59,977 bases of DNA from a virus, in the IMG/VR virus record IMGVR_UViG_3300027848_000024, positions 1 through 59,977 of that record; one strand, written 5' to 3'. The translations under genes and the position numbers were made by a program. Below are positions 1-33,906 of this stretch, in pieces (the stretch's first letter is position 1; each line of letters starts with the position of its first letter). The notes beneath the pieces are model-generated. The model saw only the letters and a program-made list of their open reading frames with translations. It had not been told where the DNA came from and made no database searches.

Positions 1-447
1 AAGACATGGCTGACCAACAGCAACACGATAGTTACTTCCCCGGTTTGGAACAAGTCCGAGGCGGAGAAGAAACTGCTACAACTGGCCGAACAGTTCCTTG
101 GGAAAGGTAAGGTAACCGAAACACCCATCGAAAACGCCATGGCTGTTGAGAAGCCAGATGACGAACTCCTGTTCGTTGAACTGTTTGGTGAGGAAGAAGA
201 CGAACATACGTGGTATGTGTTCTTGCACATACTTCTTCCCACTCCCGGAGCAAACTTCAAGTACCGGGTTACAGTGGAAGCGGAGACGTTTGATGTTTAC
301 ATGTGGGGTGAGCCTGTGGCCGACTTTGAGGATGCCAGAGGATGTTTGCTTGCATGGGCAACTGAAAACCTGCAAAACACGCAAAAGTTCCACAGACATG
401 CGGCTCGCTACGTCTATCGCTTGCTAGAGCCTACCGTTACCGAATGA
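1..447 (+). CDS. Hypothetical protein, 5' end outside window
   Basis: The reading frame is open from the first base, so this is the C-terminal part (148 residues visible) of a longer protein; an in-frame ATG at 139 exists, but the upstream codons read as normal coding sequence. No family recognised. The visible part is acidic and mixed alpha/beta, with stretches such as ELFGEEEDEHTWYVFLHI. A terminator follows 7 bases after the stop, so it ends its transcription unit. Confidence 0.7.
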   Translation, partial: KTWLTNSNTIVTSPVWNKSEAEKKLLQLAEQFLGKGKVTETPIENAMAVEKPDDELLFVELFGEEEDEHTWYVFLHILLPTPGANFKYRVTVEAETFDVYMWGEPVADFEDARGCLLAWATENLQNTQKFHRHAARYVYRLLEPTVTE

Positions 448-453
448 GAATTT

Positions 454-480
454 GGGTGGGGTGTAACAGCCCCGCCCTTT
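454..480 (+). terminator. Rho-independent terminator
   Basis: An 8-bp stem (454-461 with 470-477, one G-U pair) is followed by a short T run. It closes the unit of the partial first gene and lies directly upstream of a leader hairpin. Confidence 0.75.
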
Positions 481-518
481 AGACACTTTATCTTGTGTCA
501 CTGCAACTATTGGAGGAG
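478..518 (+). promoter_or_regulatory. Leader hairpin plus SD, copy 1
   Basis: TTTAG, then stem GACAC/GTGTC (482-486 with 495-499, 8-base loop), then ACTGCAACTATT and the strong ribosome site GGAGGAG at 512-518. One of eight copies of the same architecture in the first 8.2 kb. The stem bases differ between copies but pairing is kept. Confidence 0.6.
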
Positions 519-526
519 ATACTACA

Positions 527-817
527 ATGGAAAACTTGTTACATTCCAACAATGACAACATCATGTGCAGCATTGAGCGGGCCTACACCGCATGGAAGAG
601 CAGCCAGTATGGCTACCTTCCGTTCAACAAGCACTGCGCTTTCTGTTGGACGCAGACTACCAACACCGCAATCATTGTGTTTCACTGCGACCCGGAGCGC
701 AATGACGGTGACGGCTACCTTGCCATTCAGGTGCGCATGATTGCCCCGAACAATGTGTGGAGCGTCATTTCGGAAACCACGCACAAGTCCGCTAACTTGG
801 GTCTTGTGCTTAAGTAG
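527..817 (+). CDS. Hypothetical protein (96 aa)
   Basis: Starts at ATG 527, nine bases after GGAGGAG. No family recognised. The small soluble-looking protein has a CAFCW segment near residue 38 and no membrane segment. It is preceded by the conserved leader hairpin and followed after 18 bases by the next gene, so the two are probably co-transcribed. Function unknown. Confidence 0.75.
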   Translation: MENLLHSNNDNIMCSIERAYTAWKSSQYGYLPFNKHCAFCWTQTTNTAIIVFHCDPERNDGDGYLAIQVRMIAPNNVWSVISETTHKSANLGLVLK

Positions 818-835
818 AACAAGAAAGGGCACACA

Positions 836-1153
836 ATGTCCGCTTTCATCGAACGTACCACGGTTTCCCACTTCGTAGTTGTCCATTACAGCGCCCGAAC
901 GGGCGAAACTGTTTTCTGGCCCTGCCCTTGCCTTAACGCAGAGCCGGACAACGTCGGGCAGATGCTGGGAAATGCCTTTCGTATGCGTGTTAACCCGGAG
1001 AAACACCACTTTACTCCGGGCGTTCGCTACAAGGCAGATGTTACCACAAAAGACGAACAAATCGTCCGCGTGGAACTTGGCACCATAAAGGCATTATCCA
1101 TGGTGGCTGATAAAGAAATTGCGTTCGCCCTGCAAAGCGGGGTTGGCGCATGA
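836..1153 (+). CDS. Hypothetical protein (105 aa)
   Basis: ATG start at 836 with upstream purine-rich AAGAAAGGG as ribosome site. No recognisable domain; mostly beta-strand-like sequence with no signal peptide. It is the second gene of a two-gene unit that ends at the terminator at 1157. Confidence 0.75.
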   Translation: MSAFIERTTVSHFVVVHYSARTGETVFWPCPCLNAEPDNVGQMLGNAFRMRVNPEKHHFTPGVRYKADVTTKDEQIVRVELGTIKALSMVADKEIAFALQSGVGA

Positions 1154-1156
1154 TTT

Positions 1157-1185
1157 GGGAGGGGTACAATGGTGCCCCTCCCTTT
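1157..1185 (+). terminator. Rho-independent terminator
   Basis: GGGAGGGG (1157-1164) pairs perfectly with CCCCTCCC (1175-1182), followed by TTTATT. It ends the 527-1153 unit. Confidence 0.8.
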
Positions 1186-1218
1186 ATTACCTTTCTTTGG
1201 TACACTGCTACGGAGGGG
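1184..1218 (+). promoter_or_regulatory. Leader hairpin plus SD without an obvious gene, copy 2
   Basis: Stem TACC/GGTA (1188-1191 with 1199-1202, 7-base loop), then ACTGCTAC and GGAGGGG at 1212-1218. It matches the other leader copies, but the codon at the expected start spacing is ATA (1229) and that frame stops after 9 codons. Either the gene it served has decayed or it leads into the structured element at 1232-1308. Confidence 0.45.
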
Positions 1219-1231
1219 ACAACAACCATAC

Positions 1232-1308
1232 AAGCCGACGAGTGGCCCCTTGGTTGACTATGGTGGCGCTGGTCACTGTATGGTTAACTGAGGCTAGCCT
1301 GTCGGCTT
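1232..1308 (+). ncRNA. Possible small structured RNA element
   Basis: AAGCCGAC (1232-1239) pairs perfectly with GTCGGCTT (1301-1308). Inside, 1241-1247 pairs with 1271-1277 (7 bp, one G-U), and a short hairpin lies at 1291-1300. It is not a tRNA, since there is no T-arm or anticodon arm. It lies between a leader hairpin and the gene at 1337. Only pairing within one sequence supports it. Confidence 0.3.
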
Positions 1309-1336
1309 TAAATGGTCCTTACGCTAGGGGTTGGTT

Positions 1337-1780
1337 ATGGCTATACTTGATGCTGAGACTACCGACGTGGACTTTTACGTCACCTTTGCCGGTAAATTGT
1401 TCTTGTACAGCTTGGACGTAGAAATTGCTACGCAAGAACTTACACAGCATTGGTCCAGCACTACTTACCTTAAAAAGTTTCTTAGCACTTACGGGGTGTT
1501 CACAAATAAGAATGTAACTACCGTACACATATTGGAAAACAAGGTAATTCCCTGTGTTTGTTTGGGCAGCGTTACCGTATCGCCTAAGACCATGGATAAG
1601 GACGCGGTGTTGTCCTTTAACCTGTACCTTGGTAAGAAAGAGTTCTTTAATGATAGGTTTTACATTCTTACCATGGACGCCGGGGATGAACTGCCTACCT
1701 ACTGGAACGTACTCTCCCCCGGTGGTTATGAGCACTTTCGTACTTGGTTGTTTTCTATGCTAGAACAGAACATTACTTAG
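1337..1780 (+). CDS. Hypothetical protein (147 aa)
   Basis: ATG at 1337 is preferred over the upstream in-frame TTG at 1331 because AGGGG at 1326-1330 is correctly spaced for it. No family recognised; no membrane or signal segment. Its stop codon overlaps the stem of the leader hairpin that serves the next gene, and no terminator intervenes. Confidence 0.75.
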   Translation: MAILDAETTDVDFYVTFAGKLFLYSLDVEIATQELTQHWSSTTYLKKFLSTYGVFTNKNVTTVHILENKVIPCVCLGSVTVSPKTMDKDAVLSFNLYLGKKEFFNDRFYILTMDAGDELPTYWNVLSPGGYEHFRTWLFSMLEQNIT

Positions 1781-1811
1781 TCACTTTGTGACACTGCACT
1801 AACTGGAGGAG
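1776..1811 (+). promoter_or_regulatory. Leader hairpin plus SD, copy 3
   Basis: Stem GTCAC/GTGAC (1780-1784 with 1788-1792, loop TTT), then ACTGCACTAACT and GGAGGAG at 1805-1811. Nearly identical to the copy at 4817. It overlaps the stop codon of the previous gene. Confidence 0.65.
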
Positions 1812-1816
1812 TACCA

Positions 1817-2224
1817 ATGCCAACGAAAAAGAAAGCCGTGGATTTGGCTAATCTTTCGGATGGGGACCTCGTTGATGGCTTCCATGCAATGAAAGCGCGG
1901 GTTAAAGCGTTGACGTCGCAGGCGGAAGCCATGAAAGTCGAGATCACTAGGCGAATGAAGAAACCACCGACGGCGACAAGAGCACGGATGCTGAAGGGTA
2001 GCGCAATTAGTGCTACTTGGATGCAGGAACCGTGGAGATGGGTCGACCAGAAAAACCTGCGGGCCGATGCCGAGAAGAAAATTACCTTAAGGAAGTACCT
2101 TTTGGAAGGCACCCGTAACGTTATGATAACGGCCCCTTCTGGTGAGAACGCAAAAGACGTTCGCCAGAAACAATCAGAAATGCACAGCCCCAAGAAAGCG
2201 GCAAAGAAAAGACCGCGGTTGTAG
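1817..2224 (+). CDS. Hypothetical basic coiled-coil protein, ends in KKRPRL
   Basis: ATG at 1817, five bases after GGAGGAG. 135 residues, strongly basic. A helical, probably coiled-coil stretch spans residues 12-50, followed by a compact middle part and a Lys/Arg-rich tail. The last five residues are KRPRL, one of eleven RP(R/S/T)L motifs found in unrelated proteins of this window. The charge suggests nucleic-acid contact, but that is inference. Confidence 0.75.
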   Translation: MPTKKKAVDLANLSDGDLVDGFHAMKARVKALTSQAEAMKVEITRRMKKPPTATRARMLKGSAISATWMQEPWRWVDQKNLRADAEKKITLRKYLLEGTRNVMITAPSGENAKDVRQKQSEMHSPKKAAKKRPRL

Positions 2225-2228
2225 TACT

Positions 2229-2423
2229 ATGAAAACAATGTTTAAGTACGGATCGCGGTTCGTTGGGGGAATGGTTTTCTTTTGGTTCTTCGCCTTTGTG
2301 ATGCTGCCTGTCTTTGGCTCTTGTGCCTTTGACATGGAGCCGCCGCAAAGTTCGTTCCCAAACGAGGATCCTACCCCAAGAGCCGGTTCCGACGGACTTA
2401 TTGGTGGTTCTTACGCACCATGA
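2229..2423 (+). CDS. Small membrane protein or lipoprotein (64 aa)
   Basis: ATG at 2229, four bases after the previous stop. A hydrophobic stretch (residues about 11-30) is followed by FGSC, a poor but possible lipobox, and then a Pro/Ser-rich polar tail. Either a single-pass membrane protein or an exported lipoprotein. A terminator follows immediately. Confidence 0.65.
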   Translation: MKTMFKYGSRFVGGMVFFWFFAFVMLPVFGSCAFDMEPPQSSFPNEDPTPRAGSDGLIGGSYAP

Positions 2424-2427
2424 AGAT

Positions 2428-2460
2428 AGCAGGGGGCTCCGGCCCCCTGCTACTCTCTTT
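2428..2460 (+). terminator. Rho-independent terminator
   Basis: Perfect 10-bp stem (2428-2437 with 2442-2451) with loop TCCG, followed by a pyrimidine-rich run. It starts five bases after the stop of the 2229 gene. Confidence 0.85.
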
Positions 2461-2475
2461 TGTTGGCTGGTATTA

Positions 2476-2513
2476 TTTAGTCCATATTGGACAAAAACTG
2501 CAAACTGGAGGAG
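2476..2513 (+). promoter_or_regulatory. Leader hairpin plus SD, copy 4
   Basis: TTTAG, stem GTCCA/TGGAC (2480-2484 with 2488-2492, loop TAT), then AAAAACTGCAAACT and GGAGGAG at 2507-2513. The stem differs from copies 1 and 3 at both strands together. Confidence 0.65.
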
Positions 2514-2522
2514 TACTTAAAA

Positions 2523-3548
2523 ATGCATCCGAAAAGCACTGTTATTGCGCTGACGGCACTCATTGCAAACCGGGAGCCTGCCTTGCTGGTTGGCCCCCCG
2601 GGAGTGGGAAAGACTTCGTTGATCAAAATGGCGGCAGATGCTGCAGACTACGACCTGATCATCACCCACCCCGTTGTGTCGCAGCCGATCGACTTCCGCG
2701 GTATGCCGTCCACGATTAAGGACGGCGACGAATACCGCGCAGAGTTCCTGCCCATTGGGGCCTTGAGGGACATGTTGGCCGCTACTGAGCCGACCGTGTT
2801 CTTCCTGGATGATCTCGGGCAGGCGGCTCCGTCCACGCAGGCTGCATGTATGCAGCTTCTGTTGGAGCGGCGCTTGGACGAGTATGTGGTCCCTGACTGC
2901 GTTACGTTCATGGCCGCTACCAATGGCCGCAAGGACAAGGCGGGCGTTGGCGGGCTGCTTGAGCCTGTTAAGTCCCGTTTCACCACCATCTTCACGCTTG
3001 AGGTTAGCGTGCAGGAGTGGTGCGATTGGGCGATCGACGCGGGCTACGACGACATGGCGGCGTTCATCAAGTTTCGCCCCGCCCTGTTGTTTGACTTCCA
3101 GCCCACGGCCGATGTGGAAGTCAACTCCCCGGTGCCCCGCACCGTGGAAGCTGCGGCGCGTATCGCGCGGATGGATCTTCCTACCCACATCCGCAATGAG
3201 ATGATTCGTGGCGCGGCTGGTGACGGCTTTGCCGTGGAGTTCTGCCACTTCTTGGATATGGTGGCTAAGCTGCCTGATCCCAGGAAGGTGCTGGCAGACC
3301 CCATGAAGGTGCAGCTGGACGCCGACAATGTGTCCTACACCTATGCTCTGGTTACGGCGGTTTCTCGCGTCGTGGACAAGAACACGATCAGCAATTTCGT
3401 TAAGCTGATCGACCGGGACGAGATTGGCGTGGACTTTGGTACCATGGCCATGCGGATGATTGGCAGGCGGAACAACAAGCTCGTCGCCACTCGTGCGTTC
3501 TTGGATTGGGTGAATGAAAACAACGTGCGCCTGGATTGGGCGTCGTAA
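2523..3548 (+). CDS. MoxR-like AAA+ ATPase
   Basis: 341 residues from ATG 2523, chosen because GGAGGAG at 2507-2513 is correctly spaced; an upstream TTG at 2487 lies inside the leader. Walker A GPPGVGKT at residues 24-31 and Walker B FFLDDLGQ with D96/D97, followed by a sensor-type segment (AATNGR). The size and the KPVKSRF-type region fit the AAA_5/MoxR group. Such ATPases usually act as chaperones with a VWA partner, and the VWA protein lies two genes downstream (4863). Known phage examples lack an assigned function. Confidence 0.85.
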   Translation: MHPKSTVIALTALIANREPALLVGPPGVGKTSLIKMAADAADYDLIITHPVVSQPIDFRGMPSTIKDGDEYRAEFLPIGALRDMLAATEPTVFFLDDLGQAAPSTQAACMQLLLERRLDEYVVPDCVTFMAATNGRKDKAGVGGLLEPVKSRFTTIFTLEVSVQEWCDWAIDAGYDDMAAFIKFRPALLFDFQPTADVEVNSPVPRTVEAAARIARMDLPTHIRNEMIRGAAGDGFAVEFCHFLDMVAKLPDPRKVLADPMKVQLDADNVSYTYALVTAVSRVVDKNTISNFVKLIDRDEIGVDFGTMAMRMIGRRNNKLVATRAFLDWVNENNVRLDWAS

Positions 3549-3557
3549 CTGCCATTG

Positions 3558-3586
3558 GCGGGGGGCCTTCGGGCCTCCCGCTACTT
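3558..3586 (+). terminator. Terminator with UUCG tetraloop
   Basis: 10-bp stem (3558-3567 with 3572-3581, one G-U) closed by C-TTCG-G, the very stable UNCG tetraloop. The T run after it is short, so read-through is possible. Confidence 0.75.
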
Positions 3587-3625
3587 AGGTCATAATAATG
3601 TGACCACTGCGAACTATTGGAGGAG
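3584..3625 (+). promoter_or_regulatory. Leader hairpin plus SD, copy 5
   Basis: CTTAG, stem GGTCA/TGACC (3588-3592 with 3601-3605, 8-base loop), then ACTGCGAACTATT and GGAGGAG at 3619-3625. Another compensated stem sequence. Confidence 0.65.
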
Positions 3626-3631
3626 TACGTT

Positions 3632-4771
3632 ATGAATACCACTTCCCTCATTGAGGAAAATGCCGTCGTTGTGAAGCTTTTCATCGGCGGCTGGAAGGGC
3701 GAGAAGAATGACAAGGCGACGGCGTCCAAGGTTACCACGGACAGCCATGCCAAGCGTTCGGCTGGCCGGTTCATCAAGCGGCTGGTTGCTAACGAGCACC
3801 ATGCCACTTTCTACAAGATGGTGAGCCAGATTCGCACCTTCCACCTCGACGCCACGTTGCCGTGGCTCGACACGGGCTTGCGTCTTCTGCCCGTGGAGGC
3901 CATGGATAACTACAACAAGGAAATGGCCAGTATGCGCGTCAAAGCGATGAAGGCCGCAAAGCTGTTCGTGGCGGACTACACGGGCGTTCGTGAGAAGGCC
4001 CGGGAAGAGTTGGGACTTCTGTTCCGCGAGGAAGACTACCCCTCGTCGGAGCGGCTGGGTTCCCGTTTTGCGGTTGACGTGCGCTTTCTTCCCGTCCCCA
4101 ACCCTGCTACCGACTTCCGGTGCAAGGTGTCGGCGGAATCGCGCGATGCGTTGATCGCACAGGGAGAAGAAGCCATGCGCACGGTGGTGAAGAGTGTTGC
4201 CACCGACCTGTGGGAACGTGTCGTGGAAAACGCCGAGCTCCTCTTGGAGCGCGTCGAGGACCCCGACCGTTCTTTGCAGGAACGCCTTGTTGGTCGTGTG
4301 AAGGCCACCTTGGCGTCGATGGAGACCCTGAACGTTCTCAACGACACGGAACTCAACGACATGCTGAAGCAGTTCAAGGACGTGCTGAAGCCTGACATTG
4401 AGTCCATCCGCGGCGATACTGTGGTGCGCGGCGCTACCTTGAAGGGCTTGAAAGAGCTTTCCAAGACGGCGCGTTCCAAGGCCGGTATGCCTTCCCGTGA
4501 GAACGAGAAGAAGAAGGCCAACGTCGCCAAGGCCGACAAGAAGGCGGCGGCTGTGGAAAAGGTGGCGGCGCAGAAGGGTGCTGCTCCCAAGAAGAAGCCT
4601 GTGGTCAAGCTGGTCAAGCAGCCCCGTAAGAAGGGCAACCAGTCGCCTGTGTCGACCACGGGCGGTTCGGGTAGCAGTGTGGCGGACGAAACCGCCCCTG
4701 TCGACAGCTATGTGCCCGCCTCGGACGTTTCCGAGGCGGACATTGACCGTGGTGAGCAGGCTGCGTCGTAA
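3632..4771 (+). CDS. Hypothetical partner of the MoxR/VWA pair (DUF3150-like?)
   Basis: 379 residues from ATG 3632, six bases after GGAGGAG. The helical N-terminal two thirds end in a Lys/Ala-rich disordered tail (about residues 285-345) and a Ser/Asp-rich end. It sits between the MoxR-like ATPase and the VWA protein. From memory, phage MoxR/VWA sets often include a protein of this size annotated DUF3150; I cannot confirm membership. It is probably part of the same complex (inference from gene order). Confidence 0.7.
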   Translation: MNTTSLIEENAVVVKLFIGGWKGEKNDKATASKVTTDSHAKRSAGRFIKRLVANEHHATFYKMVSQIRTFHLDATLPWLDTGLRLLPVEAMDNYNKEMASMRVKAMKAAKLFVADYTGVREKAREELGLLFREEDYPSSERLGSRFAVDVRFLPVPNPATDFRCKVSAESRDALIAQGEEAMRTVVKSVATDLWERVVENAELLLERVEDPDRSLQERLVGRVKATLASMETLNVLNDTELNDMLKQFKDVLKPDIESIRGDTVVRGATLKGLKELSKTARSKAGMPSRENEKKKANVAKADKKAAAVEKVAAQKGAAPKKKPVVKLVKQPRKKGNQSPVSTTGGSGSSVADETAPVDSYVPASDVSEADIDRGEQAAS

Positions 4772-4789
4772 GTAGCTGGGTTTCCAGCG

Positions 4790-4819
4790 GGGTAGGGGCG
4801 AAAGCCCCTACCCTTTCTT
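4790..4819 (+). terminator. Rho-independent terminator
   Basis: Perfect 10-bp stem (4790-4799 with 4804-4813) with a GAAA tetraloop, followed by TTTCTT. Confidence 0.9.
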
Positions 4820-4853
4820 AGTCACTTTGTGACACTGCACTAACTTGGAGGAG
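4817..4853 (+). promoter_or_regulatory. Leader hairpin plus SD, copy 6
   Basis: CTTAG, stem GTCAC/GTGAC (4821-4825 with 4829-4833, loop TTT), then ACTGCACTAACTT and GGAGGAG at 4847-4853. It matches copy 3 over more than 30 bases. Confidence 0.65.
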
Positions 4854-4862
4854 ATTAAACAA

Positions 4863-6209
4863 ATGCACGAAGTAAATAAAGCCCGAGAGCAGGCCACGCT
4901 CGATGACCTGCGAAAGTGCCGTAGCTTCATGCTGCTTGCCCATCCTTTCTTTGGGCAGTTGGCCATGAATCTGCGGCTGAAGGTTGCCGAGGGAATTCAC
5001 CAGTGGATTATCCCCACGGCGGCTACGGACGGGGTGTACATCGTTGTTAACCCCGACTTTTGGGACAGCCTTTCCAAGCAGGAAAAGGTTTTCCTCGTGG
5101 CGCACCAGACCTTCCACTGTGCACTCGACCACATTGCCCGAACTGGAGAACGCGAGCCGGACAAGTGGAACGTCGCTTGTGACTACGTTATCAACCTTAT
5201 CTTGTCGAAACAGCGTTCGATGACCATGCCCCAAGGTGGCTTGCTGGATAGCAAGTACGAGGGCATGAACGCGGACACTGTCTACAAGATGTTGCCTGAC
5301 CCCCCGCCACCTGAACAGGGTAGCGGTGCAGAAGGGGACGACGAAGGTTCCGCCGACGAGGACGGACAAGGCCAAGGTGGACCCGGACAGCCCGGGAAAG
5401 GCAAGGGCAAGCCGTCCAACAAAGGTGGCTATGGAAAAGCCCTCGGGGACAACAAGGACATCCTTCCTGCGGGGTCGGTTGGCAAGCCAAGTGATACCAC
5501 CAACAACCACAGGGACGACGACGCGGGCCTTACTCCACAACAGTTGGGGGAAGTACTGCGGGACAAGTGGAAGGGCGCTCTTGCGGGCGCTTACCACGCG
5601 GCAAAGTCGGCTGGCGATGTACCTGCGGGCGTGGAAGAACTCATTAACGACTTCCTCCACCCGCGCATCGACTGGAAGGATATCCTTCGCCGGTTCTTTA
5701 CCGAGCAGGCAATGGATGACTACAATTGGATGTCCCCCGACAGGTACATGTTGAACCACGGCTTCTACTTGCCCACCCTCGACTCCGAGGGCAAGATGGG
5801 TGAAATGGCTGTGTTCGTTGATACCAGTGGCAGCATTGGGCCGGAAGAGCTCAAGGTGTTTGGTGGTATCATCAGCAACATCCTGGAAGAGGTGCGGCCT
5901 AGCACCTGCCATGTCTTCTACGGAGACACACAGTTGCAGAGGCACGATACCTTTGATGCGGACGAGTTGCCCATCACGCTCCACAAGGTTGGTGGCGGTG
6001 GAACGGCGTTCTCCAGTATTTTTCACAGCGTCGCGGAAATGCGGTTGGACATCCACTGTGCCATCTTCCTTACCGACCTGTATGTCCACGACTTCGGGCC
6101 GGAACCCAAGTACCCCGTCCTTTGGGCCAGCACTACGGACCAGGACAAGGTGCCTTGGGGGCAGGTGATGAAGGTTGACATGGATGACTTGCGGTCGCAA
6201 GGTTTTTAG
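4863..6209 (+). CDS. VWA protein with degenerate metallopeptidase-like domain (DUF2201-like)
   Basis: 448 residues from ATG 4863, nine bases after GGAGGAG. The N-terminal part resembles the putative metallopeptidase domain of DUF2201 proteins, but the HExxH motif reads HQTFH (residues 81-85), so the catalytic Glu is replaced by Gln. A Gly/Pro/Asp-rich linker spans about 145-230. The C-terminal VWA domain carries the MIDAS signature D320-T-S-G-S324. Family knowledge pairs this architecture with MoxR ATPases, and one is encoded at 2523. It is probably a metal-binding adaptor rather than an active protease (inference from the missing Glu). Confidence 0.85.
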   Translation: MHEVNKAREQATLDDLRKCRSFMLLAHPFFGQLAMNLRLKVAEGIHQWIIPTAATDGVYIVVNPDFWDSLSKQEKVFLVAHQTFHCALDHIARTGEREPDKWNVACDYVINLILSKQRSMTMPQGGLLDSKYEGMNADTVYKMLPDPPPPEQGSGAEGDDEGSADEDGQGQGGPGQPGKGKGKPSNKGGYGKALGDNKDILPAGSVGKPSDTTNNHRDDDAGLTPQQLGEVLRDKWKGALAGAYHAAKSAGDVPAGVEELINDFLHPRIDWKDILRRFFTEQAMDDYNWMSPDRYMLNHGFYLPTLDSEGKMGEMAVFVDTSGSIGPEELKVFGGIISNILEEVRPSTCHVFYGDTQLQRHDTFDADELPITLHKVGGGGTAFSSIFHSVAEMRLDIHCAIFLTDLYVHDFGPEPKYPVLWASTTDQDKVPWGQVMKVDMDDLRSQGF

Positions 6210-6225
6210 GCGACCCGCGCTTAGG

Positions 6226-6254
6226 GGGAGGGGTTAGCGCCCCTCCCTTCTTTT
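6226..6254 (+). terminator. Rho-independent terminator
   Basis: GGGAGGGG (6226-6233) pairs with CCCCTCCC (6240-6247), followed by TTCTTTT. It ends the MoxR/VWA block. Confidence 0.85.
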
Positions 6255-6280
6255 AGTAATAAAAACTACTATTGGAGGAG
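6251..6280 (+). promoter_or_regulatory. Leader hairpin plus SD, short variant, copy 7
   Basis: TTTTAG, weak stem TAGT/ACTA (6254-6257 with 6265-6268), then CTATT and GGAGGAG at 6274-6280. It lacks the ACTGC element of the other copies. Confidence 0.5.
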
Positions 6281-6283
6281 ATA

Positions 6284-6592
6284 ATGCCTAGTAAGCAGCC
6301 CGCGTCCTACACCACCATGTTTGCGCGACACAACCAAAAGCCATCCTACGAGTACACTTGGAGTGTATCCAAAGACTCTCTTAATCAAGGGAAGCTGTCC
6401 ATTACCGAGCAGTACCTTAGTAGAAGTCTTTTCTATGGCAAAGCAGCACCAGCGTCTCTATCCATCCCCTTGGATAAAGAAAGCTGTGCATCTTTGATGC
6501 AGGACCTTCAAAACCTGTATGGCATGCTCCCCGATACGCATATGACCACACCTTCCAATAAACCCCCGTTGCCCTCCGCAAGGAACGAGTAA
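6284..6592 (+). CDS. Hypothetical protein (102 aa)
   Basis: ATG 6284 follows GGAGGAG by only three bases; the in-frame TTG at 6272 is inside the ribosome site and is rejected. No family recognised. Polar, Ser/Pro-rich at both ends, with a short amphipathic helix around residues 70-82. Its stop is four bases before the next ATG, so the two genes are probably co-translated. Confidence 0.7.
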   Translation: MPSKQPASYTTMFARHNQKPSYEYTWSVSKDSLNQGKLSITEQYLSRSLFYGKAAPASLSIPLDKESCASLMQDLQNLYGMLPDTHMTTPSNKPPLPSARNE

Positions 6593-6596
6593 CAGC

Positions 6597-7445
6597 ATGT
6601 TTGAGCAACTTACGCGCGGGGTCTCTTACCAACCAAGTGTGAGCGCTGTCTACAAAGGCTTTCTATACAGAGGAATGATGTTTAACCTAGTTCCGCATCT
6701 TTCCGACGTTGAAAAATACACCTCGCCTACTGAGTCGCCAAAAAAATATCAGCTAAACGCGTTCCACCTACTATTGCAGCGCGACGGAGAAGTCCTAACA
6801 GAAAAGAAGTTTCTAAAAAAATTCTTAATGAGAAAAGAAGAGAAAACTTTCCAAGTAAGAAAAAGAGCTTTGCCTGTATCAAGTCCCTCTACAATCGGGG
6901 CCACTGCCTCTCCGCCTGTTTTGGTAAGACTTCTTGCTTTTGCCTGTCAAGTGCGCGTTACTGTGGAACACGATGAAACTTTCCGAGGGTTTGTTACCAA
7001 GCCCATTCAAAAAGAATTGATTGTGCAACACGGAGAATACCCGCGTATTCCTTTACTACATCACGCCGGTAGGAAGGCAGGTAAGGAAACAGACTTAACC
7101 CCGCAGGAAATTGATAATTTGTTTTTCTTTGAAACGGGGCAACCGTTGTTCGGTACGTTTTCCCAAAGAAAACAATCGAATAGGTTCCTTGAAACGCAAG
7201 AAGAGGACTGCTGCACAATAGAAGGGCACGCATACCACCTGTGCTCTTTTAGTGGTATTTCATACCTACACGGGAAACGTACGCCAAGCGAGTCGGTAGA
7301 ACCGCAAGGGAACACCCTCTCCGAGAAACTATTGGAAGTGAGCAAGTGGCTTTCGACGTCCTCGTTGTTTGGTTTGAACTATTCCCATGACTTGTTGGAA
7401 AATCTTAATCAAGCTGCGAAAGAAGCATTAAGCCATTCGATATAG
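6597..7445 (+). CDS. Hypothetical protein (282 aa)
   Basis: ATG 6597 with AAGGAA upstream. No domain recognised. The protein is basic in the first half (KKFLKKFLMRKEEK) and has His/Cys clusters at about residues 158-160 and 207-218 that might bind metal, but they match no known finger. No signal peptide or membrane span. Confidence 0.7.
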   Translation: MFEQLTRGVSYQPSVSAVYKGFLYRGMMFNLVPHLSDVEKYTSPTESPKKYQLNAFHLLLQRDGEVLTEKKFLKKFLMRKEEKTFQVRKRALPVSSPSTIGATASPPVLVRLLAFACQVRVTVEHDETFRGFVTKPIQKELIVQHGEYPRIPLLHHAGRKAGKETDLTPQEIDNLFFFETGQPLFGTFSQRKQSNRFLETQEEDCCTIEGHAYHLCSFSGISYLHGKRTPSESVEPQGNTLSEKLLEVSKWLSTSSLFGLNYSHDLLENLNQAAKEALSHSI

Positions 7446-7517
7446 CTACCGGGGAATCCCTTTGTATATATAGAATCTGAAAAGGTCTGATCGATAAAAA
7501 AACTAGAGGAGAAACTA

Positions 7518-8006
7518 ATGGAAGAAACCCGTTACATAACAAAAGAAGAAGCTGTTTTTGCAGGGAACCAACACTTTGGTGAAGAAAGAAAACACCATAC
7601 CTGCGAAGGTTCCTTTTTTTTGGTGTGCTACCATGTACTGGACAAGAACTTCTCTTGGCAGAAGTTCGGGCACATTGCCAATCCGGTACGGCCTGTTGAG
7701 GCAGGGGCGAAACGGCCACGACTACAAGCCGAAAAGGTCCTGCCTGCCAAAGCGACCGTGGTTGCCAAACCAAAGCGACCCAGCCTCGATGACAAACCAA
7801 AAGGTGATGGCCCCAAGGTTGGGTCCAAAATGAGACTGGTCTTTGACCTATGTCGCGCGGCCGAGGGGGCTACCAAGGACGACCTTGACCAAGCTACGGG
7901 CAACCGGGTTGGCTGGCGGACTCGTGTTATGGATCTTGGAGTCAAGTACGGCTTTGAGTTCTCGGAAGCTGGTACCAAAAAGAATCCGCGGTACTGGCTA
8001 AAGTGA
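7518..8006 (+). CDS. Hypothetical protein with winged-helix-like C-terminus and two RPxL motifs
   Basis: 162 residues, ATG 7518 seven bases after AGAGGAG. A Lys/Pro-rich linker (about residues 64-105) carries AKRPRLQ and PKRPSLD, two of the RP(R/S/T)L motifs. The last 55 residues look like a small helix-turn-helix/winged-helix fold of the DUF3489 type (from memory). A DNA-binding role is plausible but unproven. Confidence 0.7.
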   Translation: MEETRYITKEEAVFAGNQHFGEERKHHTCEGSFFLVCYHVLDKNFSWQKFGHIANPVRPVEAGAKRPRLQAEKVLPAKATVVAKPKRPSLDDKPKGDGPKVGSKMRLVFDLCRAAEGATKDDLDQATGNRVGWRTRVMDLGVKYGFEFSEAGTKKNPRYWLK

Positions 8007-8046
8007 GCTGATGGATGTCCAGCATGGATGTCCGGGGGTACATTTT

Positions 8047-8085
8047 ACGGGGGGGCCACAACGAACGTGGCCCCCCCGTCTCCCC
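8047..8085 (+). terminator. Rho-independent terminator
   Basis: Perfect 13-bp stem (8047-8059 with 8067-8079), 7-base loop, with a weak T-containing tail. It is the strongest hairpin of the early region. Confidence 0.8.
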
Positions 8086-8096
8086 TTGCTAACATT

Positions 8097-8136
8097 GTTT
8101 AGGTGCATTAACGCATCACGTAACTCACTGGAGGGG
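8097..8136 (+). promoter_or_regulatory. Leader hairpin plus SD, copy 8
   Basis: TTTAG, stem GGTGC/GCATC (8102-8106 with 8113-8117, one G-U, 6-base loop), then ACGTAACTCACT and GGAGGGG at 8130-8136. Confidence 0.5.
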
Positions 8137-8139
8137 TAT

Positions 8140-8430
8140 ATGGAGAAAAGAGAAGTACATGAGGTAACCACGTACTACGATTGCCTTGGGAACGAATTCA
8201 AAGCCCAAACTATCGCAGACGTGGCCACCAACCACTTCCACGGCTTGGCGTTACAAACCAAGCTGGATGTACTGCAAGCGCAACGTGGCCACCTGTGGGA
8301 CTTGCCTGACGGTACCAACGCGCAAGCGGCTACACGAGAGCACCGCTTGTCTATCTTGCTTGGCACCGTTAACGAGGTTACTGGTTCCCCAAACAGGGAA
8401 ACTGTGCAGGCCTTTATGGTCCGCCACTAG
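8140..8430 (+). CDS. Hypothetical protein (96 aa)
   Basis: ATG 8140 directly after GGAGGGGTAT; the longer frame from 8011 runs through the terminator and is rejected. No family recognised. Soluble, His-containing and probably helical (LALQTKLDVLQAQRGHLW). Enclosed between two terminators, so it forms a single-gene unit. Confidence 0.7.
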   Translation: MEKREVHEVTTYYDCLGNEFKAQTIADVATNHFHGLALQTKLDVLQAQRGHLWDLPDGTNAQAATREHRLSILLGTVNEVTGSPNRETVQAFMVRH

Positions 8431-8440
8431 GAGAACTGTA

Positions 8441-8478
8441 CCCGAGGGGTCTTAACCGGCCCCTCGGGTTTTTCTTTT
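8441..8478 (+). terminator. Rho-independent terminator
   Basis: CCCGAGGGG (8441-8449) pairs perfectly with CCCCTCGGG (8460-8468), followed by TTTTTCTTTT. A textbook terminator. Confidence 0.92.
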
Positions 8479-8500
8479 AAACTGCACAGGAGATAATCAA

Positions 8501-8704
8501 ATGAACGAAGACAAAAAGATTGATAACTACGGGGACGTTATGCAGGGATCCGTAAAGTTTGCCCCTGAGGGCAGATCTTTTAACATGGTGTGCAAGTCCG
8601 CGGAAGGTGGGAAGTGCTTGGTGCCCTCCTTTACTGGGACGCGATGTGCCGCCTGCCCCGAGCGTGTGAACTCAACCGAATGGAAGAAGACGAGTGATGT
8701 CTGA
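8501..8704 (+). CDS. Hypothetical small Cys-containing protein (67 aa)
   Basis: ATG 8501 with AGGAG at 8488-8492; an ACTGCA box like that of the leader family precedes it. Four Cys (GGKCL, GTRCAACPE) could form a zinc knuckle. Overlaps the next gene by 8 bases, indicating translational coupling. Function unknown. Confidence 0.65.
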   Translation: MNEDKKIDNYGDVMQGSVKFAPEGRSFNMVCKSAEGGKCLVPSFTGTRCAACPERVNSTEWKKTSDV

Positions 8705-8891
8705 GGCTCATTCAATAATTCGCACCAGCCCCAAAGGCAAAGGGCAGAAGTTTGTCGGGGTCTGCATCAGATGTGGGCAAAAAGGACTGACAATAGCTGA
8801 CGTGAACGAGGAGTGCTCGAACGTGCGCGGGGTCTCCGCTGACGCCGCCCTCGTGGAGATTCTCGCAGGCCCGCGGGCGCGGGCTAGGTGA
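8697..8891 (+). CDS. Hypothetical small CxxC protein (64 aa)
   Basis: ATG 8697 lies inside the end of the previous gene (frame shifted). CIRCGQKG is a zinc-knuckle-like half site; only one further Cys follows. The 3' half is GC-rich (GPRARAR), marking the start of a cassette with different base composition that runs to about 9.95 kb. Confidence 0.6.
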   Translation: MSEAHSIIRTSPKGKGQKFVGVCIRCGQKGLTIADVNEECSNVRGVSADAALVEILAGPRARAR

Positions 8892-8918
8892 ACGGCTGCA
8901 CAACCAGAGGAGACGACC

Positions 8919-9614
8919 ATGTACCAGATCAAACACATTCTCACTGAGGCGGTCCTGTTCGAGGCCGATACCGATGACCTGCGCCGATGCGTGATGCTTG
9001 CAGTCGAAAGCGGCGCCGATCTGCGCTTTGCCTACCTGAGCGATGCCTACCTGCGCGCCGCCGACATGCGCTGTGCCAACCTTTCGCGCGCCAACCTTTC
9101 GCGCGCCAACCTGATCTGTGCCGACCTGAGTGGGGCCAACCTGATCTGTGCCGACCTGATCGGCGCCTACCTGAGCGATGCCTACCTGCGCGCCGCCAAC
9201 CTGATCTGTGCCAACCTGATCTGTGCCGACCTGAGTGGTGCCAACCTGATCTGTGCCGACCTGAATGGTGCCCACCTGAGCGATGCCAACCTTTCGCGCG
9301 CCGACCTGCTCTACGTCGACCTGAGTGGTGCCGACCTGAGTGGTGCCAACCTGATCGGCGCCAACCTGAATGGTGCCAACCTGCACAGTAATTCCATCAT
9401 CGACGCCGGGAAGGACGCTCGCGGCTATCGATTCGTTGCCGTGCAGCACGACACCGGGCCGATGATCGCCGCTGGCTGTCGCTGGTTCACCCTCGACGAA
9501 GCCAAGGTGCATTGGGATGCCGCTCATGCCGACGATCCCATCCTTCGTTCTGAGTGTATCGCCAAGGTCTCACTGATCGAGGCCATCGCCAAAGCGCGCG
9601 GATGGATTGCCTGA
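8919..9614 (+). CDS. Pentapeptide-repeat protein
   Basis: 231 residues, ATG 8919 with AGAGGAG upstream. An N-terminal lead of about 25 residues, then roughly 25 pentapeptides of type A(D/N)LxX (residues about 34-155), which form a right-handed quadrilateral beta helix. The C-terminal domain of about 70 residues has the GYRF, AGCRWFTL and ARGWI blocks that I associate with other phage and prophage pentapeptide proteins. The DNA is built of near-identical 15-base units and is clearly GC-richer than its neighbours, suggesting recent acquisition. Some pentapeptide proteins mimic DNA and bind gyrase, but nothing here shows that role. Confidence 0.88.
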   Translation: MYQIKHILTEAVLFEADTDDLRRCVMLAVESGADLRFAYLSDAYLRAADMRCANLSRANLSRANLICADLSGANLICADLIGAYLSDAYLRAANLICANLICADLSGANLICADLNGAHLSDANLSRADLLYVDLSGADLSGANLIGANLNGANLHSNSIIDAGKDARGYRFVAVQHDTGPMIAAGCRWFTLDEAKVHWDAAHADDPILRSECIAKVSLIEAIAKARGWIA

Positions 9615-10334: not shown

Positions 10335-10409
10335 GGTCCCGTAGCTCAATTGGTTAGTAGCTAACTGCTCATAACAGTTCGGTTGTAGGTTCGAGTCTTA
10401 CCGGGACCA
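10335..10409 (+). tRNA. tRNA with CAU anticodon (Met or Ile2)
   Basis: Acceptor GGTCCCG (10335-10341) pairs with CGGGACC (10402-10408). Anticodon arm AACTG-CTCATAA-CAGTT, so CAU. T-arm GTAGG-TTCGAGT-CTTAC, with CCA encoded at 10410-10412. The first acceptor pair is normal, so it is not an initiator. CAU may read Met, or AUA Ile if lysidine-modified. The D-stem has one mismatch. Confidence 0.9.
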
Positions 10410-10435
10410 CCACTTTCTTCTACAAGAGGTTTACT

Positions 10436-12511: not shown

Positions 12512-12593
12512 GCCCGCATGGCGGAATTGGTAGACGCAGTGGACTTAAAATCCATTGACACATGTCGTGGGGGTTCGAGTCCCCCTGCGGGTA
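12512..12593 (+). tRNA. tRNA-Leu (UAA)
   Basis: Acceptor GCCCGCA (12512-12518) pairs with TGCGGGT (12586-12592). Anticodon arm TGGA-CTTAAAA-TCCA gives UAA. A class II variable arm is present, the T-arm is GGGGG-TTCGAGT-CCCCC, and CCA is encoded at 12594-12596. Confidence 0.95.
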
Positions 12594-12619
12594 CCACTAC
12601 AAAGTAACTGGAGAAGAAA

Positions 12620-20430: not shown

Positions 20431-21270
20431 ATGACGAAATACAATCCGGTAAACGTGGACACCAGTTATGGTAAGGGGGCTTTTCAAAAGAAGTTCTTTG
20501 AGGAAGGTAAACTTCTGGTTCGCACGCACTTTGATACCTTACAGGGAGAAGGACCTTTTGCGGGCAGGCCCGCTTTCTTCATTCGCTTTGGTGGTTGCAA
20601 CTTTGGGGGCAAGGGCACAAAGGCTGGCCCCGGCTGCACTTTTTGTGACACAGACTTCTCCATAAACAAATCGCTGTTATACGCGCCGCTTGATCTGTTA
20701 GAGATTGTGCAAAGCGGTACCAAAAGCAAGCTGGTTATCCTTACCGGAGGGGAGCCCCTCCTGCAACCCGACATTCCCATGGAAAATCTATTTAGGGCAT
20801 TGAAGGCGGAAGGGTACGAGATCCAACTGGAAACCAACGGCACCTATATGCCGGAGTGGTTGGTGCGCATGTCCGGGAGCAGAGTGACTATTGTGGTTTC
20901 GCCTAAAGCTGCTGAGAAGTTGAAGAAGTACGATTCTGCAAAGAAACCGGTTCCCAAAATTGCAGATAGGATGAAAACCTTCGGAGACGTGTTTAAGTTC
21001 CTTATTAGTGCAGACCCGGAAAGCCCGTACTACGATATCCCGGCTTGGGGGAAAGACTTGGCATACAAAATAAACCCCATGGAGCGTGTGTGGCTGTCTC
21101 CCATTGCCGTGTACCATAGCGCGCCCACTAGCGAGGTGGTTAGCGGCTGGTCGGGGGAACACATTGACCGTGAGGCCACGGCGCGCAACTACGCACGCAC
21201 CGCAGAGCTTTGTATGGAGTATGGTGCCCGACTTACCATTCAGCAGCACTTGTTCACGGCCATCCCATAA
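20431..21270 (+). CDS. queE: 7-carboxy-7-deazaguanine synthase QueE
   Basis: 279 residues, ATG 20431. Radical-SAM enzyme that turns 6-carboxy-tetrahydropterin into 7-carboxy-7-deazaguanine, third step to preQ0. TLQGEGPFAGRPAFFIRFGGCN is the family signature; cluster cysteines are C56, C69 and C72 (a C-x12-C-x2-C variant also seen in some bacterial QueE). TGGEPLLQ is the SAM-binding GGE motif. The gene is 6-10 kb away from queD, queC and folE, but on the same strand. Stop and next start overlap (TAATG). Confidence 0.95.
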   Translation: MTKYNPVNVDTSYGKGAFQKKFFEEGKLLVRTHFDTLQGEGPFAGRPAFFIRFGGCNFGGKGTKAGPGCTFCDTDFSINKSLLYAPLDLLEIVQSGTKSKLVILTGGEPLLQPDIPMENLFRALKAEGYEIQLETNGTYMPEWLVRMSGSRVTIVVSPKAAEKLKKYDSAKKPVPKIADRMKTFGDVFKFLISADPESPYYDIPAWGKDLAYKINPMERVWLSPIAVYHSAPTSEVVSGWSGEHIDREATARNYARTAELCMEYGARLTIQQHLFTAIP

Positions 21271-23436: not shown

Positions 23437-25001
23437 CAAAAAGAGTAGTTAACCAGTTCTTAGAACGCAAACTGGCAAACTACGACTGGATGAAAGAGCT
23501 GCCCGCTAAGGAAGTCGTGCGCGAATACAAACTGATTAACCCGCGTTCTACCATGTGCACGACTTTGTACAGCCACCAGATGATTTGCTTGCTGCTGGGA
23601 GTAGCCCACGAGCAATTCCTCTATTTCCTTGACATGGGCACAGGCAAAAGTCTGCTAGCGTTAACCCTGTATGACTATTTCCGGCAAATGCAGGGCATTG
23701 GGAGTGGGCTGGTTCTAGTGCCAAACGTTATCAATATCGAAGGTTGGCAAGAGCAGGTGGAAGAACACTGCCCGCATTTTTCGTTTGTGCCGTTGGTTGG
23801 GACCAGTCACCAAAAAGAGATGGCGTTGCTCGACCCGGCGGACTTGTACTGTATCAACTACGCGGGGTTGAACCATTTGGTAAGCACTAAGGTTGCTAGC
23901 GGAAAGAAGGGGGGTGGTGAGAACCTTAAGCCGCAGGATGGTGTTATCAAGCGGTTAACCGACCGCATTGGGTTTGTTGCGTTCGACGAAAGCCAAGCCC
24001 TTATGAACCACGATTCTCTTACTAGTCGGGTATGCCGCAAGATTGCCAAACAAGTAGAGTTCCGGTTTGCCTTTACCGGAACCCCGGCAGGCCGAGACCC
24101 CTCTGCCTTTTGGAACCAATTTATGACTATCGACATGGGGGATACCCTTGGGGAAACTCTTGGCATGTTTCGCTCTGCTTTCTTTAAGTCAAAGAGAAAC
24201 TACTTTTCTGGTTTCCCGGAGTACATCTTCGATGATGCCAAACTAAACAAACTGCACGAAGTTATGAAGAATCGCAGTATTAGCTACGAGGCTTCTGAAT
24301 GTGTTGACATGCCCCAAGAAGTAGAAGTTAATAAAGTGGTGGCTTTGTCCCACACGGGTATTGATTACTATAAGAAGTACCAAGCCAAATTGGCCGCAGC
24401 TAAAGGCAACAAGTCTCTTATGAAGAATGAGTTTATGAAATTAAGACAGATTAGCAGTGGTTTCCTAAAGGTGAAGAATGCCAAGACAGCAAAGGTGACC
24501 GTGGTTAACCTGCCCGAGAATCCTAAGTTGGATTTGCTTTTGTCTCTTATGGGGAACGTTCCTTCTGCTCGGAAAATGGTTATCGCCTACGAGTTCATTC
24601 AAAGTGGCGTCCTTTTAAAGAAAGCGCTAACAGAACTTGGCATAAACTTTGCTTTCTTGGGGAATGGTTTAACCAAGCAGGAAAAGCGGGATGAGTTGCG
24701 CAGGTTCAAACAAGACCCAACGTGCGTTTGCTACTTGATGAGTCACAAGGCCGGTGGTAGTGGGCTAAACCTACAGGTGGCCAATTACATGTTTGTGTAT
24801 GAAACGCCTATATCCTCTATTGCTAGACAACAGTTATTGCGCCGGGTGGCCCGTGGTGGACAGAAGATGAAGAAAGTGTTTATCTTTAATTTGCTGATGA
24901 AAGGCACGGTGGACGTGCGCATATTGGAGTACTGCAAAGAGGGCAAGAACCTCTTGGAAATCCTTCTTAACGGATCGGATGAGTTGTATGAAGACAATTG
25001 A
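23427..25001 (+). CDS. SNF2-family DEAD-like helicase/translocase
   Basis: 524 residues, ATG 23427. Motif I DMGTGKS (residues 69-75), motif II FDESQ (about 187-191), motif III TGTPAGRDPSAFWNQF, motif V GGSGLNLQVA and motif VI-like RQQLLRRVARGGQ. The layout is that of phage SNF2-type ATPases, which move on double-stranded DNA and may remodel forks or displace proteins. Overlaps RNase H. Confidence 0.88.
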   Translation: MPVTKRVVNQFLERKLANYDWMKELPAKEVVREYKLINPRSTMCTTLYSHQMICLLLGVAHEQFLYFLDMGTGKSLLALTLYDYFRQMQGIGSGLVLVPNVINIEGWQEQVEEHCPHFSFVPLVGTSHQKEMALLDPADLYCINYAGLNHLVSTKVASGKKGGGENLKPQDGVIKRLTDRIGFVAFDESQALMNHDSLTSRVCRKIAKQVEFRFAFTGTPAGRDPSAFWNQFMTIDMGDTLGETLGMFRSAFFKSKRNYFSGFPEYIFDDAKLNKLHEVMKNRSISYEASECVDMPQEVEVNKVVALSHTGIDYYKKYQAKLAAAKGNKSLMKNEFMKLRQISSGFLKVKNAKTAKVTVVNLPENPKLDLLLSLMGNVPSARKMVIAYEFIQSGVLLKKALTELGINFAFLGNGLTKQEKRDELRRFKQDPTCVCYLMSHKAGGSGLNLQVANYMFVYETPISSIARQQLLRRVARGGQKMKKVFIFNLLMKGTVDVRILEYCKEGKNLLEILLNGSDELYEDN

Positions 25002-25476
25002 CATATACTGCGATGGCAGTTGTAGAAACAAGAAGACACAACGTGATGGAGGTTGGGGTGCTATTATCGTACACGGATTTTATCCGCTTAACCCTACCAT
25101 TATGTGCGGTGTTGCTGCTAATGCCACAAGCAATAATCGCATGGAGTTACTGGCGGCAATTTGCCCCTTGGAAATACTTGGTGCCCACGATGTTCCCGTG
25201 GTGGTTACCAGCGACAGTAAGTACGTCGTAGACGGCTTCCGCTTTTGGATTAAGGACTGGGAAGGAAACGACTGGAAAGTTTCCAACGGGGACGACCTAA
25301 AGAACATGGATCTTTGGAAACGGTTGCTGCTACAAAAGAGAGCGCACAGGAATTTGACCTTCAAGTGGGTCAAGGGGCACCGGGGGCACGCTTTCAACGA
25401 ACAAGCGGACTATTGGGCTGGCTTGGCAAGACGAGGCACAGTGCCGGACGAATACATTGTGAGTAGTGACAGCTAA
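24988..25476 (+). CDS. Ribonuclease HI
   Basis: 162 residues from ATG 24988 (ATG 24979 is possible). YCDGSC with D9, NRMELLA with the catalytic Glu, TSDSKYV with the third acid and NEQADYWA with the fourth make the DEDD set complete; KGHRGH is the handle-adjacent substrate loop. Removes RNA primers from Okazaki fragments, in keeping with the primase next door. It starts inside the SNF2 gene, and its stop overlaps the primase start. Confidence 0.93.
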   Translation: MKTIDIYCDGSCRNKKTQRDGGWGAIIVHGFYPLNPTIMCGVAANATSNNRMELLAAICPLEILGAHDVPVVVTSDSKYVVDGFRFWIKDWEGNDWKVSNGDDLKNMDLWKRLLLQKRAHRNLTFKWVKGHRGHAFNEQADYWAGLARRGTVPDEYIVSSDS

Positions 25477-26720
25477 TGGCACGCAAAACAAAAGGCACTT
25501 CTTCTTTCGACTGGCGCAAGTTCTTCGAAAGCAACAGCATTGAGTATGTAACCACGGGACCAAACGTCTCTCAAGGAAACATAAACATTAAGTGCCCGTT
25601 CTGCGGTAGCGGCGACCCTAGTCATCACATGGGCGTTAGCATACATGGTCGGGGTTGGTCTTGCTGGCGTGCCGCGGACCATCGTGGAATTGCTCCCCAG
25701 CGTCTTATAATGGCCCTGCTAGGCTGCGACAAAGCCCGCGCCGACGGCATAGCAGGCCGAAAGCCGTCACTGTCCCCTAGCGGCCCTATACAGGCGTTGC
25801 GCGAGGCCATGGAAAACACACCGACGGCATACATTGCCACTAGTGGGGGTACTGCCAAACAAAAGAAGAAAGATCCCGGGAAACTTAAAGTTTCTATGGT
25901 ATCCGCGCAGCGGCCTATTAACGTAAGCAAGGGGAGCCGCTTTTGGTCGTATATGCAGGGTCGTGGTTTCTTGTATAACGGCGAAACAATGAAGGTTCTA
26001 AACAGTAACCATGTTTTCTTCTGCAAGAAGGGTTTATTTAAGGACAGGGTTCTTTTTGCTATCCGTCACAAGGGAGAGGTTGTTACTTGGACAGCACGAG
26101 CGATTGGCCAAAGTTCGGTACGCTACAAGTCCCTTTCGGAGAAGCCGAGCAACATACAAGGTATGCCACTGGCTAAAAGGAACATTAAAGACTGCCTGTA
26201 TGGGTACGATGACCTTATTAACCTAACTGGGAGAGATTCCTTTTTTAACATTTTACTGGTGTGCGAAGGCCCCATGGACGCGCTTAAGTTAGACTATTTA
26301 AAAGGGAAGTTATCTCGGGCAGGAGAACACGCTAGGCGGCGACCGGGAACACCCCCTGTGAATTTTCAGCACACCTGCTTGTTTGGCGTTACTGTTAGTG
26401 AGAAGCAGGTTATGCTTCTCGAGAAGCTTTCTAAGGTCTTTGATAAGATAGTGTTCCTGTTGGACCCCGAAACGGTGGTTAATCAAGTGGACGCATTATC
26501 CAACTTTGCGGGCGTTGACGTATCCTTGGGAGAAATACCCGAAGGGTACGAGGACCCCGGCGCATTAGATTCGGTGGGGTACCGGGCAATGATTATAAAC
26601 ATGGAAGACAAGTTTTCCAAAGAAAAGAAGCTACATACCATTAACTTTAGTGCCAATATGCAGTGGCCCCGCCAGCCACTCCCCTCTTTTAATAAAGTGA
26701 TTACCACGGGGGTTGTTTAA
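25476..26720 (+). CDS. DNA primase with zinc finger and Toprim domain
   Basis: 414 residues, ATG 25476. The N-terminal zinc module CPFCGSGDPSHHMGVSIHGRGWSC is close to the T7 gp4/DnaG type. Toprim motifs LLVCEGPMDALKL and FLLDPET follow in the C-terminal half. The length lacks room for a helicase domain, consistent with the separate DnaB-like protein. A disordered Ser/Lys linker lies between the domains. Confidence 0.9.
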   Translation: MARKTKGTSSFDWRKFFESNSIEYVTTGPNVSQGNINIKCPFCGSGDPSHHMGVSIHGRGWSCWRAADHRGIAPQRLIMALLGCDKARADGIAGRKPSLSPSGPIQALREAMENTPTAYIATSGGTAKQKKKDPGKLKVSMVSAQRPINVSKGSRFWSYMQGRGFLYNGETMKVLNSNHVFFCKKGLFKDRVLFAIRHKGEVVTWTARAIGQSSVRYKSLSEKPSNIQGMPLAKRNIKDCLYGYDDLINLTGRDSFFNILLVCEGPMDALKLDYLKGKLSRAGEHARRRPGTPPVNFQHTCLFGVTVSEKQVMLLEKLSKVFDKIVFLLDPETVVNQVDALSNFAGVDVSLGEIPEGYEDPGALDSVGYRAMIINMEDKFSKEKKLHTINFSANMQWPRQPLPSFNKVITTGVV

Positions 26721-27789: not shown

Positions 27790-27791
27790 GG

Positions 27792-28388: not shown

Positions 28389-28463
28389 CCACCATGCTAC
28401 ATCGTATATGTATGCAAGGTGTCTTACACGTAAGAAACCCAAAAGAAAGCGGAGAAGAGAAAC

Positions 28464-29582: not shown

Positions 29583-29605
29583 CCCCGGAAAGGGTTACAA
29601 CATTC

Positions 29606-29647: not shown

Positions 29648-29671
29648 CTATACAGCACAAAAGGTACTGAA

Positions 29672-32530: not shown

Positions 32531-32532
32531 CA

Positions 32533-33905: not shown

Positions 33906-33906
33906 C

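Follow-up and report, generated by a model that had tools for sequence, protein, structure and literature searches.

Hairpin leaders coupled to strong GC hairpins at unit boundaries in a phage genome from IMG/VR

In cluster K mycobacteriophages, many non-structural genes are preceded by repeated leaders, the start-associated sequences (SAS) and extended start-associated sequences (ESAS), in which an inverted repeat lies just 5' of the Shine-Dalgarno (SD) sequence and for which no function is known (PMC3203893). Here, we describe eight hairpin leaders, numbered s1 to s8, in the linear IMG/VR virus record IMGVR_UViG_3300027848_000024 (59,977 bases, hereafter the window); the ESAS is the closest described kind, but its defining features fail here. 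The likeness lies in an inverted repeat immediately upstream of a start-associated site at many genes. Whereas the ESAS has 17-bp imperfect inverted-repeat arms with a consensus, a 13-bp SAS (GGGATAGGAGCCC) and a variable spacer of 4–13 bp (PMC3203893), the arms in the window measure 4–5 bp (7 at most), vary in sequence with pairing kept, and are preceded by strong GC hairpins. A search of the window for the SAS returned one match with two mismatches, at 29919, where 0.97 were expected.

Emory et al. are said to have reported, in 1992, 5' stem-loops that stabilize mRNA. Such stem-loops are established for ompA and papA in works that appear in the reference list of PMC3997798. In the ompA, papA and aprE leaders, a small stem-loop close to the 5' end of the mRNA precedes the ribosome site, an arrangement that the window set would share, and their stem sequence is not critical; they are, however, single genes with mapped 5' ends, whereas the window set consists of eight paralogous copies. 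A leader hairpin predicted to fold as RNA, as in these stabilizing leaders, was found at six of the eight sites, the exceptions being s2 and s7.

Short stems that vary freely are also known from DNA. The promoters of the N4 virion RNA polymerase (vRNAP) consist of hairpins extruded from the DNA, whose stems tolerate any base at non-conserved positions as long as the hairpin is kept (PMC4496689). The window leaders resemble them in having a short stem, variable if paired, and in the short, constant spacing of the sequence that follows, but the required 3-nt loop and its bases are absent, and no such polymerase was found among the larger proteins scanned in this incomplete genome. An N4-type promoter was rejected on the loop rules, as the loops span 3–8 nt and the template loops of the 3-nt cases read AAA and ATA. 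A likeness to lambda boxA/boxB (TTTA followed by a 5-bp hairpin) was likewise rejected, because loop and stem are unconserved and TTTA falls within a terminator tail at several copies.

Other phages carry arrays of conserved palindromes. The palindrome GGTTCA-NNN-TGAACC occurs about 30 times in Planktothrix phage Pag-Yong1 (OL906435), where the record does not annotate it; many copies lie 10–30 nt before start codons of the leftward operon, and some behind terminators. Like the window, this phage carries the set of ATPase, DUF3150-like and VWA genes and has a hairpin before many starts; however, its palindrome arms are conserved, copies are also found within genes, and the palindrome bears no sequence relation to the window leaders. 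The 17-bp palindromes of cluster O mycobacteriophages are likewise repeated, dyad-symmetric and often intergenic, but have invariant 7-bp arms (PMC4351075); they show no link to an SD and resemble a DNA-binding site. Finally, record IMGVR_UViG_3300043409_000185 contains, at 386–9189, twelve copies of the palindrome CCTAACAWTGTTAGG, placed between and within genes like a repressor-site array. The stretch CTAACATTGTTTAG at 8088–8101, before s8 in the window, resembles that palindrome plus one extra T. Because the copies in the other record also lie inside genes, the two were judged different elements and the likeness coincidental.

The leader set and its excess over chance

All leaders and hairpins were read on the + strand. 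The eight leaders lie within 476–8139, a stretch of approximately 8 kb, and all were found where the original prediction had placed them. Its shared layout also stood in overall order, namely TTAG, a short inverted repeat, usually ACTGC, and GGAGGRG, but proved less uniform in detail: TTAG is present in seven of the eight (s2 has TTTATT), ACTGC in six (s7 has ACTAC and s8 ACGTA), the s8 stem includes one G-U pair, and the s5 stem is extendable to 7 bp. The SD reads GGAGGAG in six leaders and GGAGGGG in two, with ordinary spacing to the start codon in all except s2, whose SD has no start codon in the normal range. The leaders are 35–45 nt long with an A/C/T-rich spacer after the hairpin, and the loops, 3 to 8 nt, are not conserved in sequence.

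Leader s1 (476–521; 35.2 bits) comprises TTAG, the stem GACAC/GTGTC, ACTGC and GGAGGAG, and precedes a gene at 527–817. In s2 (1181–1221; 15.2 bits), TTAT is followed by TACC/GGTA, ACTGC and GGAGGGG. The third, s3 (1774–1814), has the stem GTCAC/GTGAC, then ACTGC and GGAGGAG, before a gene at 1817–2224; the TAG of its TTAG doubles as the stop codon of an open reading frame at 1331–1780. An AAAA insertion distinguishes s4 (2474–2516; 35.6 bits), which combines GTCCA/TGGAC, ACTGC and GGAGGAG ahead of an AAA ATPase gene at 2523–3548, whereas s5 (3582–3628) carries GGTCA/TGACC, ACTGC and GGAGGAG ahead of a gene at 3632–4771 related to a DUF3150-annotated phage protein. Leader s6 (4815–4856), upstream of a DUF2201 metallopeptidase/VWA gene at 4863–6209, is nearly identical to s3, but only from TTAG to the SD; their flanks are unrelated, and the confinement of the identity to this segment marks it as a functional unit. 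Counting these near-copies once leaves seven independent stems, five of them well supported. The weak s7 (6250–6283; 18.6 bits) has the stem TAGT/ACTA (or TAGTA/TACTA) and GGAGGAG before a gene at 6284–6592, and s8 (8096–8139; 23.3 bits) has GGTGC/GCATC and GGAGGGG before a gene at 8140–8430.

Each leader was folded in isolation, from TTA to the SD. The named hairpin formed with a probability of 0.97–1.0 in s1, s3, s4, s5, s6 and s8 (1.0 for s1 and about 0.97 for s8), and with a probability of 0 in s2 and s7, which have 4-bp stems; the s7 stem does not fold by itself (0 kcal/mol). Given these zero probabilities, and the missing start codon of s2, both are probably degenerate copies.

Pair counts on the leader alignment (95% of cells paired, 15 double-changed cells) come from stems that had been chosen to pair, and the unbiased test of pairing is a shuffle test in which shuffled segments were given the same freedom to pick their best stem. 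The summed best-stem score was 40, against 20.6 ± 4.6 in shuffles, and was reached by none of 5000 shuffles, an outcome unaffected by leaving out the duplicate s6. The evidence is joint, as single sites are individually unconvincing (P 0.016–0.22). When the entire + strand was scanned for TTA, a hairpin and GGAGG, seven sites emerged, whereas 60 dinucleotide shuffles averaged 1.1 and never exceeded 3; for six sites the fixed-register product of window frequencies was about 10^-11.4, in a register picked after the sites had been viewed. The leader pattern is thus real and above chance. The covarying stems of the original prediction fared well in part: the sequence comparison supports retention of pairing while stem sequence changes among paralogous copies, all within one genome, but two of the eight stems are not predicted to fold.

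Coupling to strong GC hairpins

Strong hairpins, defined as those with at least 9 pairs including 7 G-C pairs, number only 11 in 60 kb, and nine of these lie within 454–8469. Eight of the 11 directly precede s1, s2, s4, s5, s6, s7, s8 or a possible ninth, partial leader at 8470–8493. This candidate contains ACTGCA and AGGAG, has no TTAG and no better stem than a 4-bp GTTT/AAAC one that extends back to 8468, gained no score with the leader covariance model (R1), and precedes a gene at 8501–8704.

Five GC hairpins end 1–3 nt before the TTA of a leader: those at 454–477 (9 bp, before s1), 1157–1182 (11 bp, s2), 3556–3583 (12 bp, s5), 4789–4814 (11 bp, s6) and 6224–6249 (11 bp, s7). The gap is 24 nt at s4, behind the 11-bp hairpin at 2427–2452, and 18 nt at s8, behind the 13-bp hairpin at 8047–8079. 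A GC stem with a U-tract, and hence a terminator-like appearance, is present at 1157, 2427, 4789 and 6224, and the hairpin at 8440–8469, before the possible ninth leader, is a strong terminator with a good U-tract that also passed our terminator scan. The hairpins at 454, 3556 and 8047 failed that scan and have no clear U-tract, that at 454, which would form the 3' end of the upstream unit, having a weak one. The earlier claim that seven copies lie directly behind a strong terminator therefore needs rewording: seven of the eight do follow a strong GC hairpin, but only five within 1–3 nt, and three of the seven hairpins lack a clear U-tract.

Every hairpin-bounded unit begins with a leader, and the non-first genes at 836, 2229, 6597 and 7518 have none. 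Because most non-first genes lack it, the leader would mark mRNA 5' ends; its distribution agrees better with the 5' ends of units than with translation starts as a whole. The true unit is composite, consisting of a GC hairpin and a leader.

Candidate functions of the module

The five abutting copies leave little or no room for a standard promoter and have no conserved -10, and no sigma70 -35/-10 hexamers were conserved across the copies at a fixed place before the leaders. Extended -10-like stretches were seen by eye just upstream of s4 (TGGTATTAT), s8 (TGCTAACAT) and s3 (TGCTAGAAC); nothing -10-like precedes s1, s5, s6 or s7, and at s2 the sole, weak match falls within the terminator hairpin. 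The original statement that a standard promoter has little room holds for the five abutting copies; a plausible extended -10 exists only for s4 and perhaps s8. The same prediction had taken the stems as a sign of RNA pairing rather than of a protein operator. An ordinary sequence-specific operator is indeed unlikely, but the preference for RNA over DNA was too strong: a hairpin DNA promoter would covary as well, as N4 DNA hairpins do (PMC4496689), and covariation alone does not mean RNA.

We tentatively favor a composite unit-boundary module in which an upstream 3'-end hairpin is paired with a leader hairpin for 5'-end processing or stabilization. The strong GC hairpin would end the transcript of the upstream unit, either by terminating it or by protecting it after cleavage, and the small leader hairpin would sit right at, or close to, the 5' terminus of the following mRNA, shielding it against 5'-end-dependent decay; next would come an A/C/T-rich spacer free of structure, and then a strong SD. 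Anatomy, excess over chance, kept pairing, the tie to strong hairpins and the place at unit starts are direct observations, to which the model adds two steps that we infer, an RNA 5' end at or near TTAG (by initiation or nuclease cleavage) and its stabilization by the leader hairpin. Because pairing is kept though loops and stem letters vary, the pattern suits a role that is physical and does not depend on reading the sequence, and by analogy with the ompA and papA stem-loops such a role may be played at an RNA 5' end. Of the functions first proposed, a stabilizing 5' untranslated region and a processing product would remain the best readings of the sequence, with a promoter for an altered polymerase now ranked as a rival.

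Several results weigh against the boundary module. In s2 and s7, a longer pairing that engages the SD wins over the named hairpin, and with 35 nt of coding sequence appended, s5 and s6 too favor other folds. Leader s3 is internal to a unit and follows no GC hairpin. Four of the seven GC hairpins before leaders scan as terminators, which implies a promoter in almost no space, and the pyrimidine-rich 5' tails of the abutting copies are not clear RNase E sites. Moreover, no homologous phage carrying the leader was found.

The alternatives explain parts of the same evidence. A role in translation initiation, as a standby or SD-exposing site or as a translational operator through which a phage or host RNA-binding protein controls a regulon, is possible but rather unlikely. 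It has precedents in the T4 gp32 and gp43 operators (PMC3014915), and the strong SD at the leader end, with ordinary spacing at seven of eight sites, and the conservation of ACTGC 3' of the hairpin at six of eight are in its favor. Nevertheless, the native hairpin exposes the SD no better than a shuffled hairpin sequence, a result that does not support an SD-opening role for it; the absence of leaders from non-first genes, an unconserved loop that speaks against a sequence-specific binder, and an SD at s2 with its start codon out of range also count against it. Chance stems reflecting composition, with only the SD and terminator tails in common, would account for the lack of any individually significant site, for the partial overlap of TTTA with terminator T-tails at s1, s2, s6 and s7, and for the failure of s2 and s7 to fold; given the joint tests (0 of 5000, and seven sites where shuffles average 1.1 and peak at 3) and the occurrence of TTAG in s3, s4 and s8, none of which abuts a terminator, this explanation is very doubtful.

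Two further readings turn on transcription. Ordinary sigma70-type promoters may overlap the leaders or lie upstream, with the hairpin incidental to duplicated leader-SD cassettes; the stretches near s4, s8 and s3 and the recent copying evident in s3 and s6 are compatible with this, but the 1–15 kb region has fewer promoter-like sites (5) than its shuffles (8.8), four leaders have nothing -10-like upstream and s2 only its weak match, and mere copying would not preserve pairing in changing stems. We consider it unlikely. No greater credence attaches to a promoter that is recognized by its structure or used by an altered polymerase or one from the phage, with an extruded DNA hairpin, ACTGC near +1 and one promoter behind each terminator. 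Terminator-bounded units do require a start signal, a conserved motif closely follows the hairpin, N4 demonstrates that covarying stems are possible in DNA hairpins (PMC4496689), and a polymerase gene could lie outside this incomplete window. However, the larger window proteins scanned gave no RNA polymerase match, the loops vary in length, and the 3-nt template-strand loops lack the G and A required by N4 vRNAP. That the hairpin, variable in sequence and formed by either DNA or nascent RNA, serves each unit as a structure-read start signal for a polymerase or cofactor unlike that of N4 seems improbable.

Distribution and genomic context

The module is known from one phage. A degenerate DNA pattern matched 112 contigs in IMG/VR, with the anchored hairpin-leader layout in none besides the window itself; the others were chance matches, mostly within genes. 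The exact s3/s6 core had three matches in IMG/VR and GTDB genomes, none with an SD following, and the Rfam covariance models matched only tRNAs in the window. Relatives were sought via the ATPase, DNA polymerase, terminase, VWA and DUF3150-like proteins. One 30-kb contig is identical over window positions 23907–39023 but has no match to 4780–6400 and is hence uninformative on the leaders; the others share 37% identity or less. The phage collection contained no near relative, and Edwardsiella phage ZHS and Vibrio phage MAR10, related in replication genes, have no terminator-leader array. The covariance check suggested at the outset was carried out on 1.13 Mb of distant relatives and gave no match; with no element-bearing relative found, it speaks neither for nor against pairing.

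The leader-bearing genes, presumed early in the original prediction, encode an AAA/MoxR-like ATPase, a DUF3150-related protein, a DUF2201 metallopeptidase/VWA protein and unknowns. The first three form a cassette at 2523–6209, with its own leader per gene, and the set also occurs in Pag-Yong1. Beyond the leaders, an open reading frame at 8919–9614 encodes 231 aa of pentapeptide-like repeats and matches several PHROG families of unknown function. Genes for tRNA-Met (CAT) and tRNA-Leu (TAA) lie at 10335–10412 and 12512–12596. The window also carries lambda-type tail-tip genes and encodes a DnaB-like helicase and a family A DNA polymerase, besides 7-deazaguanine genes. QueE-like (20431–21270), GTP cyclohydrolase-like (30453–31502) and queuine tRNA-ribosyltransferase-like (31370–32530) genes point to a pathway for queuosine or for 7-deazaguanine modification of DNA. 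No capsid, portal or tape-measure gene was recognized in the window, and the record is therefore probably incomplete.

Start-associated phage repeats such as the ESAS have been described without a known function. The leader set stands out among them in two respects: it seems to preserve pairing rather than sequence, and its copies are coupled to a strong 3'-end hairpin. Stabilization, if true, would be an incremental result, whereas promoters read through structure, if true, would be unexpected. The array thus offers a compact and testable case of whether phages mark transcript boundaries by paired 3' and 5' hairpins.

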